A DNA stretch of 64,000 nucleotides from Sulfurovum sp. (GTDB lineage Bacteria > Campylobacterota > Campylobacteria > Campylobacterales > Sulfurovaceae): positions 1 through 64,000 of the forward strand of contig JAMOTA010000044.1 of assembly GCA_027068435.1 (NCBI GenBank), read 5' to 3'. This document shows positions 53,307-59,033 of this stretch, in pieces. Position 1 is the stretch's first letter, and every line of letters starts with the position of its first letter. The position numbers and the translations under genes are program-made. The notes below the pieces were generated by a model. It was not told the DNA's origin. It was given only the letters and a program-made list of their open reading frames with translations, and ran no database searches.

Positions 53307-53396
53307 TTACTGTAGATAAATTCATAAAACTTTAATATTTTTTTTAATCTAAAAGTAAAAAAATACCGTTACTATTTTTAGTATAAATGATAATAC

Positions 53397-53419
53397 TAGC
53401 TATATACAAGTTTACACTA
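53397..53419 (+). repeat. Left terminal inverted repeat
   Basis: TAGCTATATACAAGTTTACACTA versus reverse complement of right end TAACTATATACAAAGTTACACTA. Confidence 0.75.
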
Positions 53420-53480
53420 AACAATTACTTTTTAATGTAACTATCGATATAATACTCTTAGTTTAACACGAAAGGGTATT

Positions 53481-54078
53481 ATGATTAATTATGATTTTAA
53501 CTCAATATCAGATTTAATAAATACTTTCCCCGATGAAGAAATATGCATATCACACCTAGAAGAGCTTAGATGGAATGGTCATGTGGTTAGTCCATTTGAT
53601 ATTTACTCTAAGGTATATAAATGTGCTAACAATAGATATAGATGTAAAGAAACAAGTAAATATTTCAATGTAAAGACTGCTACGCTCTTTGATAACACAA
53701 AAGTAAAACTTCAAAAATGGTTTATAGCTATTTGGCTTGTAACTTCTCACAAAAAAGGCATATCTTCACTTCAATTATCAAGAGATTTAAATGTAACACA
53801 AAAAACAGCATGGTTTATGCTTCAAAGAATTAGAGCTTGTTTTGATATTAATAATGATGTACAGCTTGATAATACTGTAGAAATAGATGAAACATATATA
53901 GGTGAAAAGAACAAAAACAGACACGCTAACAAAAAAGTACCACATTCACAAGGTAGAAGCACAAAAGATAAAACAGCCGTTGTAGATATGGTTGAGTGTG
54001 AATGAAGTGATTAGATTTAATATGCTTATAGCTAATTTAAAACACAGAACTACTTATAAAGGATTGATTAATGGGTAA
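53481..54078 (+). pseudogene. IS1595-family (ISXO2-like) transposase, internal deletion/frameshift
   Basis: N-part 53481-54005 with VEIDETYIGEKNKNRH...GRSTKDKTAVVDM; C-part in the +1 frame 54004-54078 EVIRFNMLIANLKHRTTYKGLING*, an IS1595-type C-terminus; central catalytic region missing. Confidence 0.85.
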
Positions 54079-55075
54079 GATTTTAAGGGCAACACATGAT
54101 GGGGTGTTGAGTATTGATGGAAATGAATTAAGTGTAGCTGTACTTGAAGATGGTACAAGAGTGATAACACATAGTGCAGTATTTAATGCACTGGGGAGAG
54201 AAGCAAGAGGGAATAGTCGTGTGGTCAATATCCCTGCTTTTATGGATGCAAAAAACTTACAAAGCCTTATAGATGGGACTTTGAGAGACAAGATCAGTAA
54301 AGTAGAATATATTGGTCTGAATGGGAAAAATCAATCTGGTTATGATGCAACAATTTTGCCATTGGTTTGTGATTTATATCTAAAAGCTAGAGAACTAGGA
54401 GTAATTAAACAGAAGAGTCAACTAGAAACAGCACAAAAAGCAGAAATATTGGTGCGTTCATTAGCTAAAATTGGTATAACAGCACTTGTTGATGAGGCAA
54501 CGGGGTATCAGTATAATAGGGAAAGATTCGAATTACAGAAGATTTTAAAATCTTACATATCAGAAGAAATATTAAAGTGGCAATTAACATTTACTGATGA
54601 ATTTTATAGAGAGATTTACAGACTATGGGGCTTACCATTTACACCAAAGACTATAAAAAGAAAGCCTTCGTTTATTGGTGGTATTACTACAAAATATGTA
54701 TATGACATGTTGCCTGATGGAGTTTTACATAAGATTAAGGAAAATACTCCAAAATCAAAAAAAGGTCATTGGAAATATAAATTTCATCAATCCTTAACCC
54801 CAGAGATAGGTAGAGAACATCTAAAAAAGCAGATTATAGAAACTACACTACTTATGTCTATATCAAAAAATAAGGAAGAGTTTAAAAAGCTCTTCAGGAA
54901 TAAATATGGTAAATACATACAATTAGAAATGGAATTTTTAAACGATGACAAAGATAATAGAGACAAGGAACTCTCCTCCTACAATAAGAGCTTAGTAAAA
55001 ACCCTAAACTTCAATCCTAACGCACCAAAAGAAGAATCAAAGCCAAAGAAAAAGACAGCACCTAAGCTATTCTAA
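54071..55075 (+). CDS. P63C domain-containing protein
   Basis: MGKILRATHDGVLSIDGNELSVAVLEDGTRVIT...WQLTFTDEFYREIYRLWGLPF...YDMLPDGVLHKIKENTP...; AAAGGA 7 nt before ATG. Confidence 0.8.
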   Translation: MGKILRATHDGVLSIDGNELSVAVLEDGTRVITHSAVFNALGREARGNSRVVNIPAFMDAKNLQSLIDGTLRDKISKVEYIGLNGKNQSGYDATILPLVCDLYLKARELGVIKQKSQLETAQKAEILVRSLAKIGITALVDEATGYQYNRERFELQKILKSYISEEILKWQLTFTDEFYREIYRLWGLPFTPKTIKRKPSFIGGITTKYVYDMLPDGVLHKIKENTPKSKKGHWKYKFHQSLTPEIGREHLKKQIIETTLLMSISKNKEEFKKLFRNKYGKYIQLEMEFLNDDKDNRDKELSSYNKSLVKTLNFNPNAPKEESKPKKKTAPKLF

Positions 55076-55127
55076 CTAAGCCTTTTTGAAAGGTTTGGTT
55101 ATTCGTAGCAAGTGGTTTAATTTTAAA

Positions 55128-55150
55128 TAGTGTAACTTTGTATATAGTTA
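55128..55150 (-). repeat. Right terminal inverted repeat
   Basis: TAGTGTAACTTTGTATATAGTTA; inverted match to the left repeat. Confidence 0.75.
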
Positions 55151-55524
55151 CCCAAATATATTTAAAATAGGTATAACAGAACATTGAAATTTAAAAGTTA
55201 CTTATGTAAAGTATTAACCTAAATTATGCAATAAAACACAAAAAGAATCTATGCATAGTGTTAACTTAATTAAAAATATACACAACAAGGGATGTTCCTA
55301 AGTTTATTGTATATTCAATGCCTAAGCCAAAGAAACTTTGGGATAATATAGAACAATCAAAAAAGTAATTAATCTTAATACATACTAGTAATGATGAAAA
55401 TATGTCTTGTAAGATATTTTTTTATTATGTACGTATTAATTACTGATATTCTTCCTGTATATTTAGGGAATAGTAAAATTGTTAGGCAAAATAAAAGCTT
55501 ATATTTATAAGCAAGGATTGTACC

Positions 55525-56142
55525 ATGTTAGTTCCTTTATTAAAAAATGTAATAATATTATTATTACTATGTAATATTTCAATATTATCTGCATCTGACT
55601 TTACAATTAGTTCAAAAGATGATATATGGACACAAATACAACTTCATGGTCAAAATGAAGTTTGTAATATTTCTGTTCGGGATTTTCAAATTCATGGAAA
55701 TCAAATTTTAATAGATGATAAAAACTGTGTCTCTATGATAAATTCTAAAAAACAATCCATCATCTGTACAAAGAAAAAAACAATATGTAAATTAGATGAT
55801 GAAATACTTAATTTTACTATGGGCATATCTACACCAAGTAGAGCTATATATAGAAAAAATATCTTTACTACTACAAAAGGAACACCATTCAAGTCTTCAG
55901 TAAATAAGCATGGAGCAGTACTAAAATCAAAAAGTTTTACAATTTATTTAGGAAAAGATTGTGATGTATCCTCTCCTCAGTTTGGAAAAGGTACATGGGA
56001 GCAAAATAATAATAATTTCAATATTACATTCTCTACTGGTAAAATAGTAAGTTTTGCAAATACTAAAGCACCAATAAAACAATGTTCAACAAATTCCAAT
56101 AATACAGTAAAATTAAATAGTAAGAAAAAAATCATTCTCTAA
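55525..56142 (+). CDS. Exported hypothetical protein
   Basis: Signal peptide VIILLLLCNISILSAS; no recognised domain. Confidence 0.55.
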   Translation: MLVPLLKNVIILLLLCNISILSASDFTISSKDDIWTQIQLHGQNEVCNISVRDFQIHGNQILIDDKNCVSMINSKKQSIICTKKKTICKLDDEILNFTMGISTPSRAIYRKNIFTTTKGTPFKSSVNKHGAVLKSKSFTIYLGKDCDVSSPQFGKGTWEQNNNNFNITFSTGKIVSFANTKAPIKQCSTNSNNTVKLNSKKKIIL

Positions 56143-56173
56143 AGTATATTTTGATGATTTATCTATTTTTCCA

Positions 56174-56551
56174 ATGGACTACTATAATAAAAATATAGAA
56201 ATAGAATGTGGTCTACGAGAAACACAAGTTAGTTATTTGGGTAGAGGAGAAGTTACAAAGGTAACAGACGCATTTATGGTTGATTCTTATTGTAAACTTC
56301 GAACAGCTATTAAAGGTAATACGCATAAAAAAGATTCTTCAAAATTACTACTTCTAATCTTAAATACATCTGACGGAGAAGGAAAAATTTTAGCAAAAAA
56401 AATCCAGCATAATACAGATAAGATGTTTATATTTAAAGGTATTTTTAAAAGAGCTGATAATATTTTCTTCTTATATCCTACCTTAGTTATTATTGATGTA
56501 CAAATTATAGGAAAGGCACCAGCTACTGAATTTTCAGACTTATTTAGATAA
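56174..56551 (+). CDS. Hypothetical protein
   Basis: 125-aa ORF following 55525 in the same orientation; no recognised domain. Confidence 0.4.
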   Translation: MDYYNKNIEIECGLRETQVSYLGRGEVTKVTDAFMVDSYCKLRTAIKGNTHKKDSSKLLLLILNTSDGEGKILAKKIQHNTDKMFIFKGIFKRADNIFFLYPTLVIIDVQIIGKAPATEFSDLFR

Positions 56552-56822: not shown

Positions 56823-59033
56823 TTATAACTCTTCAACTTCTATAGTGACACTTCTCATTTTAGCCCCTTGGTCAAGACAGTTTATTTGGTGTCTTCCTTG
56901 GCTAAAGTAGCGGTAGTATTTCTCTCCTGATATACTACGAAAAGGTGATTCATTGTCTATAAGCCAATAAATCGTAGCGTTATCTTCAAAAGAGAAACAT
57001 TGTAGTGAAATCTTTTTTAAGTACTGAGGAAGCAGTCTGTTTTGTAGGTATGTTTGTTTATCTACAGGGTTACTTATAAGGGGGTTATACTGCTTCCACT
57101 CCTTGTAACACGTATGGTTTTGTAAAGCTGACATTGAGTTAACCATACCCTCTTCAAGCATCTTAACAAGTACCTCAGCACGTAACAACTTACAAGAAGT
57201 ATGAAGCTTTACCCCCTCTATAACCTCATCTTTTACCTGACTCTTACACTCTCCTACTTGTATAACATCTTGACATATCTTTTTACTAACCACACCTTTT
57301 GGTTTTTTAAAATGCTCTTTGGGCTGAAGCAGTTTAAAAATAGCATGAAGCGTAGGAGAAGCAGCTTCAAGACCTGTCATACGCTTTGCATTTTTCCCTT
57401 CTCTTTTTTTACTCTTTGTTCTGTTGAAGTTACCATACCACACGGCTACGGTGTATTCGGGTGTGTACCCTACACAAAGCAAATCTTTTGCATGTGCAGA
57501 AGTTCCTGTTTTAAAAGCAACGCTAGGTACATCTTTCATATACTCCCATGAGCTACTAAAAGCATCTCTAGGTGCATCTACTAGCATCTTACTCACAAGG
57601 TATGAAGCTTCTTTACTAAGTACTTTCTTTGCTTTTATGTCTCTCTCTTCTAACAGATATGAAGCCTTACTATAGACTCCACCATTTGCAAGCATCGCAA
57701 AAAGTTCTGCAATATTTTTTAACGTTATGCCACACCCTCCAAGTGTTAAAGACAAACCATAATACCCTTTAGAACGGTTTATAGACTTTATATCTGCATT
57801 TTTAAGTACACTATAGAGTGATGCCTCTTCAAGCAGACGCTCAAGCTCAACAGCAGGAATGTTCAGCGAAAACTGCAACGCCTCTTTTGCAGTCACCTCT
57901 CCAAGGAAGCGTTTACTGTAGTTTAAAGGTTTATATCCTCCCATATAAAGTGGCAAATCATAAAGCTTTTTAAGCGGTGTTATCAACCCTTTTTCAAGTG
58001 CTTTAGCATAGACAAAAGGCTTGAGCGTAGAGCCTGGACTAAAAAGAGCCATAAGACCATCTATTTGACCACCATGCTGTTTATCTTCAAAACCTTGAGA
58101 GCCTACATAGGCAAGTATCTTCATTGTTTTGTTGTCTATAACTATGGCTGAACCGTTGTAAATCTGCAACTTCTTTAACGCTTTGACTCTTTGGCTAACG
58201 AGCGTTTGCACTCTCTGTTGTAGTTGAAGCTCAATACTCGTATGCACCCTCCCACCCGCTTTAAATTTACGGCTAAGATGAGGAGCAAAATGAGGTAAAT
58301 CTCTTCTTTTAGGGCTAAGCTTCTCTCTTTTAGCTCGACTATAGACTTCTTGCGTAATATTGTGGTTGTTATACATACTCAAAAGTACTTTTTTCTTAAG
58401 TGACTCTACTCTGTTTAAAACTTTAGGTGTATTGAGATTTGGATTTTTAGGTATGGAGACAAGATAGGCTACTTGGGCTACAGAGAGTGCATCAACATCG
58501 ACACCAAAATAGACAAACGAAGCCGAAGCAAACCCCTCTACATTTCCCCCATAAGGAGCATTATTGAGATACAGAGTCAAGATACTCTCCTTAGAGTAAC
58601 TATACTCCAACTGTAGAGCCATAAAAAGTTCTATACACTTGTTTCGTAATGTTCTAGGCTTACGGTGCATCATACGAGCCAATTGCATGGTAAGCGTAGA
58701 AGCACCTATGAGATGTCTGTTACGCAAGTTAAACCACAACGCCCTTACTACAGAAAAAGGGTTCACCCCCAAATGTTCATAAAAGTATTTATCTTCATAA
58801 CTCAAAAGTGCTTGTTTCATCTCTTTTGTGATTTCACTACGCTCTAAAGGCATACGCAAAAACCCATCTTCACTCAAATGCACCCTCAAAAGCTTATGGT
58901 TTCTGTCATAAACAAGTGTAGACCTTGGTTTAAAAAGACGTTTTGTATCTAGTGGAAACAGTTCATTTAAAAGAAAAAAAGATAAAACACTCACTACTAA
59001 AAAGAGTAAAACTATTTTAATGCTTTTTATCAT
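56823..59033 (-). CDS. pbpC: Penicillin-binding protein 1C
   Basis: Transglycosylase EDKYFYEHLGVNPFSVVRA, GASTLTMQLARMM; transpeptidase SPGSTLKPF and FKTGTS; C-terminal extension. Confidence 0.94.
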   Translation of the reverse strand: MIKSIKIVLLFLVVSVLSFFLLNELFPLDTKRLFKPRSTLVYDRNHKLLRVHLSEDGFLRMPLERSEITKEMKQALLSYEDKYFYEHLGVNPFSVVRALWFNLRNRHLIGASTLTMQLARMMHRKPRTLRNKCIELFMALQLEYSYSKESILTLYLNNAPYGGNVEGFASASFVYFGVDVDALSVAQVAYLVSIPKNPNLNTPKVLNRVESLKKKVLLSMYNNHNITQEVYSRAKREKLSPKRRDLPHFAPHLSRKFKAGGRVHTSIELQLQQRVQTLVSQRVKALKKLQIYNGSAIVIDNKTMKILAYVGSQGFEDKQHGGQIDGLMALFSPGSTLKPFVYAKALEKGLITPLKKLYDLPLYMGGYKPLNYSKRFLGEVTAKEALQFSLNIPAVELERLLEEASLYSVLKNADIKSINRSKGYYGLSLTLGGCGITLKNIAELFAMLANGGVYSKASYLLEERDIKAKKVLSKEASYLVSKMLVDAPRDAFSSSWEYMKDVPSVAFKTGTSAHAKDLLCVGYTPEYTVAVWYGNFNRTKSKKREGKNAKRMTGLEAASPTLHAIFKLLQPKEHFKKPKGVVSKKICQDVIQVGECKSQVKDEVIEGVKLHTSCKLLRAEVLVKMLEEGMVNSMSALQNHTCYKEWKQYNPLISNPVDKQTYLQNRLLPQYLKKISLQCFSFEDNATIYWLIDNESPFRSISGEKYYRYFSQGRHQINCLDQGAKMRSVTIEVEEL

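Follow-up and report, generated by a model that had tools for sequence, protein, structure and literature searches.

Second genes in a subgroup of IS1595-type elements typically overlap the transposase gene and join exchangeable phage-type bodies to a constant C-terminal tail

In IS1595-type elements related to a decayed copy in Sulfurovum sp., a second open reading frame (ORF2) typically begins at the end of the transposase gene, and its product carries a body from one of several phage-type regulator families together with a short, shared C-terminal tail. We propose that ORF2 encodes a modular accessory protein of the element, in which a variable phage-derived regulator would be combined with a constant docking tail, and we give this reading a probability of roughly 0.5. 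The decayed copy lies in the window, that is, the whole stretch of 64,000 nucleotides that was analysed, and consists of the following features.

53395..55152, + strand: whole decayed IS1595-type element, delimited by the pair of terminal inverted repeats and by comparison with the G397 ends, with flanks that show no target site duplication (TSD)
53397..53419, + strand: left terminal inverted repeat, its terminal GG mutated to AC at 53395-53396
53481..54005, + strand: truncated IS1595 transposase, with the zinc ribbon, the HTH and the first catalytic D kept
54004..54078, + strand: out-of-frame remnant of the transposase C-terminus, RFNMLIANLKHRTTYKGLING and then a stop, read against A2
54071..55075, + strand: intact ORF2 for a P63C protein of 334 aa, its start overlapping the old transposase stop by 8 nt
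54968..55021, + strand: coding sequence of the C-terminal tail that is specific to the element (residues 300-317, LSSYNKSLVKTLNFNPN), from a profile match; a short helix on a disordered linker is predicted
55128..55150, - strand: right terminal inverted repeat, its terminal CC intact at 55151-55152

The two inverted repeats match at 20 of 23 positions; when the flanks (174 + 175 bp) were shuffled 1000 times with dinucleotides preserved, a single shuffle reached this score. They also agree with the independently defined ends of an element in G397, a campylobacterotal genome of another family in the same order (18/23 on the left, 20/23 on the right), and by homology the window element reaches 2 bp further out on each side than the repeats. 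At the right end the terminal CC of the family (GG on the other strand) is present, and at the left end AC stands in place of GG. No 8-bp target duplication was found at the window element, as the flanking 8-mers ATGATAAT and CAAATATA differ. Because the left terminal GG is lost and no target duplication is left, the window copy is dead and unable to move itself; it is an IS1595 remnant and not an active member of the family.

The truncated transposase matched NF033547 with 98.8 bits (cut-off 75) over profile positions 1-103 of 215 only, and PF12762 with 32.5 bits (cut-off 27) over positions 1-45 of 153. Compared with intact relatives, the gene has undergone a deletion of about 316-322 nt and a frame shift. 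The catalytic triad is incomplete, the second D (TDEW) and the E (IEGFW) lying inside the deletion, and the last ~25 codons persist out of frame as far as the old stop at 54078, within the start of the P63C gene. The initial annotation had described a non-autonomous IS1595-family element with inverted repeats and a gutted transposase, and this description was borne out by the profile matches, by the deletion of ~320 nt and by repeats that proved to be real and of IS1595 type.

The P63C gene between the repeats is intact, as had also been annotated, and its product matched PF10546 with 91.6 bits (cut-off 26.1) and PHROG 2384 with 354 bits. The 8-nt overlap of its ATG with the old transposase stop is the commonest arrangement among relatives. 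The AlphaFold model (mean pLDDT 77) has a folded core followed by a disordered linker (residues 282-301) and a short tail helix (residues 303-312); the linker and helix have the usual look of a docking peptide, in a part of the model where AlphaFold confidence is low. In Foldseek searches, the top named match of the core was p63 of Myxococcus phage Mx8 (probability 1.0), and the model also gave many weak matches to Bro-N proteins, the best named one at E = 0.01 and all of them above E = 0.001. The window P63C had no Pfam match to the Bro-N, KilA-N or RhuM families and no match in PADLOC, and no solved structure was found for it by fold match.

P63C genes were present in 12 of 398 Campylobacterota genomes. 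In G397, a transposase gene lies directly upstream of P63C; its product is 78% identical to the window transposase over 149 residues, the string at the junction of the two genes is nearly the same as in the window, and the element has intact ends that share the window's sequence and a perfect 8-bp duplication, AAAATTTA, on both flanks. The G397 transposase (L035, 6603-7466, minus strand) lacks ~20 residues of the DDE domain compared with relatives, and its activity is uncertain, although the ends and the target duplication are intact. In scans with this transposase, the next gene downstream was P63C in five contigs from the first viral set and in fifteen genome contigs, mostly of Bacteroidota, and among 80 viral P63C loci sampled separately with a P63C query, 8 had an IS1595 transposase directly upstream. 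About 27 IS1595/P63C pairs were found altogether, mostly in Bacteroidota, and perfect 8-bp TSDs flank the ends at 40 of the 87 loci of the clade. In the window and in the TSD-bounded relatives, P63C lies inside the ends and moves with the element, which is the arrangement that marks a tIS. The expectation that P63C travels with repeat-bounded IS1595-type elements in Campylobacterota was therefore confirmed in G397, with a target duplication, and extends widely into Bacteroidota.

In the 19 nearest relatives that bear the TRAP gene, neither P63C nor the transposase was found within 1.5 kb downstream of it (0/19), and none of these relatives thus carries P63C at this place apart from a transposase and inverted repeats. 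The TRAP gene is kept in 74 of the 78 genomes of the genus and the content downstream of it is not; no exact empty site was found among these genomes, and none is demonstrable because synteny breaks down past this gene. In the window, two hypothetical ORFs (205 and 125 aa, 55525-56551), which have no Pfam match, lie between the element and a penicillin-binding-protein-like gene (56823-59033).

ORF2 occupies a nearly fixed slot. At 35 of 87 loci its start precedes the end of the transposase gene by exactly 8 nt. Most other loci that have an ORF2 also have its start close to that end, no more than 11 nt ahead of it at about 19 of them; extra genes are often found after it within the element. The slot of sister elements holds P63C, RhuM, KilA-N or Bro-N proteins, a 145-aa protein in Streptococcus, or short ORFs. 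The Streptococcus protein is similar to the C-terminal part of P63C proteins only. At eight Streptococcus loci (L168, L169, L171, L173, L176, L177, L179 and L185), an ORF2 of 144-152 aa corresponds to this C-terminal part together with the tail; more small genes come after it, one of them nucleotidyltransferase-like (GGYVLEYHGLRATQDVDAF). The KilA-N products matched a transcriptional-regulator PHROG, and the RhuM- and KilA-N-type products matched the solitary phage-defence candidates PDC-S05 and PDC-S22 of PADLOC.

The bodies in this slot have been swapped repeatedly between phage-type regulator families, while the surrounding frame stayed constant. On the transposase tree, the P63C label requires 16 changes, at least 10 of which are forced by well-supported branches; on the tree of P63C cores, the IS label requires 11 changes, at least 8 of them forced. 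The window and G397 illustrate the same process: their transposases are close, yet their P63C cores come from different lineages, and therefore the body of ORF2 has been exchanged within a frame that stays.

BLAST connected the P63C, RhuM, KilA-N and short ORF2 products solely at the C-terminus, for the most part over the final 25-30 residues, and there they share a peptide of about 18 residues close to LSDFNxKLKKGLNYNPK. With a profile built from non-P63C ORF2 products only, the window P63C scored 22.1 bits, and the tail was detected in 19 of 21 IS-borne P63C proteins vs none of 14 from phages, plasmids and other chromosomal places. When a second flavour of the tail (VPPPKK) and a new viral set were included, it was found in 24 of 28 IS-borne P63C proteins vs 0 of 67 elsewhere (Fisher p about 1e-18; best non-IS score below 0 bits); the strict count is 23 of 27, because the viral locus L334 repeats L073. 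After correction for descent, 8 independent pairs remained, of which about 6 agreed and none opposed (p about 0.03). A few IS-borne P63C proteins (L082, L340, L359) have no detectable tail. The window P63C has the tail, unlike P63C proteins in phage, plasmid and other chromosomal settings, and the PADLOC and PHROG models of the KilA-N, RhuM and P63C families stop short of it.

IS1595 loci supplied the seeds for the tail profiles, and matches were also sought beyond the slot. The loci contain 31,835 ORFs, of which 59 scored above 10 bits; 51 of these were in the ORF2 slot, and most of the other 8 fell in genes further along the same element or in a frameshifted case of it. Strong matches in 30 whole host genomes were confined to IS1595 loci. 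Within a single bacterial family chosen by taxonomy, the Flavobacteriaceae, 301 genomes yielded 11 matches in 10 genomes; all 11 were in IS1595 elements or remnants, nine of them directly after a transposase. At one locus of this set (L373), it is the second gene after the transposase that bears the tail, in an element with matching ends and a duplication; at another (L374, G555:C13:110500-119000), an intact RhuM-type IS1595 has on its upstream side a truncated, tail-bearing RhuM C-terminus, apparently left over from a second copy. Since the tail is carried by the second gene after the transposase in a few elements (L165, L213 and L373), its action does not necessarily depend on the 8-nt overlap. 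A DNA-pattern scan for the tail in 2.9 million viral contigs gave two matches, both in contigs already known to hold IS1595 and P63C (L295, L073), and a corresponding scan for the VPPP flavour gave none.

An insertion sequence is usually seen as a transposase with or without chance passengers. The presence of one constant, element-specific tail on second proteins that are unrelated in other respects points to a common function that has so far gone unseen, and suggests that ORF2 contributes to the working of the element instead of merely riding along. We propose an accessory protein because of the predicted linker and helix, the matches of the core to viral models and the regulator PHROG matched by the KilA-N products. 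The tail would dock onto a partner encoded by the element, most likely the transposase translated from the same message, and the variable N-terminal part would bind DNA or a factor of the phage or host. ORF2 might in this way steer or control transposition, through target choice, timing or the sensing of phage or plasmid entry. In the window, the transposase would then have been lost by deletion, leaving ORF2 readable and partnerless. More tentatively, a subgroup of IS1595 may be built on a constant docking peptide and swappable phage domains (P63C, KilA-N, RhuM, Bro-N), with micro-ORFs perhaps as its stand-alone form. If so, an element could change its target finding or phage sensing by exchanging one domain. 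With the tail, a testable role can be assigned to the P63C, RhuM and KilA-N genes that adjoin IS1595, and copies adapted to the element can be distinguished from those of phages by a simple feature of their sequence.

According to the main rival reading, ORF2 is cargo captured from phages, as in a plain tIS, with no role in transposition and with a tail that serves the cargo's own job. Such cargo would be defence-like, acting for example in superinfection control or phage defence to the benefit of host or element, because the RhuM and KilA-N types match PDC-S05 and PDC-S22. Evident cargo is indeed found in other IS1595 elements, such as DNA methyltransferases, and resistance genes are known from MTnSag1 and tISCpe8 (PMC5704250); P63C also occurs on its own on phages, a satellite phage and small plasmids. 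However, random cargo would not be expected to share an IS-specific peptide on unrelated folds or to start at a fixed overlap with the transposase gene, and the evident added cargo in the same elements sits further downstream and has no tail. We therefore regard pure cargo as a real but somewhat doubtful possibility. The initial annotation had read P63C as a passenger or as part of an IS-linked system. That it travels with the IS stands, but "cargo" understates the relationship; "part of an IS-linked system" fits better, because the slot that overlaps the transposase is fixed and the element-specific tail is shared with KilA-N, RhuM and Bro-N proteins. The tail could instead be a signal for degradation, localisation or a host factor.

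It is unlikely that the window P63C was kept as a useful host gene after the death of the IS. ORF2 is intact while the transposase is deleted and the left end mutated, as domestication would predict, but the remaining 174 transposase codons are also still open, and the decay may therefore simply be recent; moreover, none of the nearest relatives in the genus has the gene at the same place, and a single copy is too few for gauging selection. Least probable of all, and very much so, is that the tail merely reflects, at the protein level, a DNA site conserved close to the right end or a hotspot at which bodies recombine: new cores do enter between the transposase and the tail code, like exchange at conserved borders, but the codon data largely refute this reading, as identity is 0.69, 0.79 and 0.46 at first, second and third positions, many different codons are used for Leu and Pro, the distance from the tail to the right end runs from 45 to 3531 bp across loci, and the tail frame is kept at the C-terminus of every type of protein. 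A DNA-level end site is rejected on the codon data together with this variable distance, and because third codon positions vary freely, the peptide is the conserved thing.

Several observations on other loci are recorded here. In distant IS1595 elements, a coupled micro-ORF (37-63 aa, often with an ATGA overlap) directly follows the transposase gene (L107, L112, L116, L119, L122, L123, L126, L131, L136-L138, L140, L145-L149, L152). Its products are of two kinds, LDAVxDRVLAYRPKPKxKxAKKRxRK and FDxLxxxLVxVPKxE...KKRKKK, and look like stand-alone accessory peptides. A common origin with the tail stays a lead, because the profiles hardly match each other and flavour B also occurs outside elements (two control matches). 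At L080, L085, L087, L090, L092, L101, L104 and L142, ends of the same type enclose DNA methyltransferase-like genes after the transposase, that of L085 being of the D12 class (Pfam). The P63C proteins of L007:6145-7107 (Javan441), L035 and L036 end in or near QLSLF or QSKLF, which we take to resemble the sliding-clamp binding motif QxxLF. In Salmonella phage SEN34 (L008, 4854-5882), P63C is by itself on one strand while its phage neighbours are on the other, in the manner of a moron gene.

The elements described here share with the IS1595 family (PF12762/NF033547) a zinc-ribbon DDE transposase, inverted repeats that start with GG and, in intact relatives of the window element, 8-bp target duplications. 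They differ in the ORF2 that overlaps the transposase gene and in its constant tail, neither of which was seen when 37 further IS1595-type transposase loci of Campylobacterota were inspected. Pfam, NCBIfam and PHROGs describe neither the slot nor the tail; the 2009 paper of Siguier et al. (Res. Microbiol.), which reportedly defines the family, might mention either. Among the papers searched, none names KilA-N together with IS1595, and one names RhuM and IS1595, in separate tables. With P63C-domain proteins (PF10546, PHROG 2384, Mx8 p63), the window protein shares the core, as judged by profile and Foldseek matches, whereas the phage and plasmid members have neither tail nor transposase neighbour. 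The Bro-N, KilA-N and RhuM regulators occupy the same slot in sister elements, but P63C has no Pfam match to them and its Foldseek matches are weak. A further parallel is with the tIS of the IS1595 family (MTnSag1/tISSag10, tISCpe8), in which a transposase and an extra gene, for lincosamide resistance in MTnSag1 and tISCpe8, lie within one pair of ends and are flanked by 8-bp duplications (PMC5704250); here, the extra gene encodes a phage-type regulator with an element-specific peptide. IS1595 elements with extra genes were already known as tIS, and what seems to be new is the ORF2 slot and the C-terminal tail shared by the proteins that fill it.
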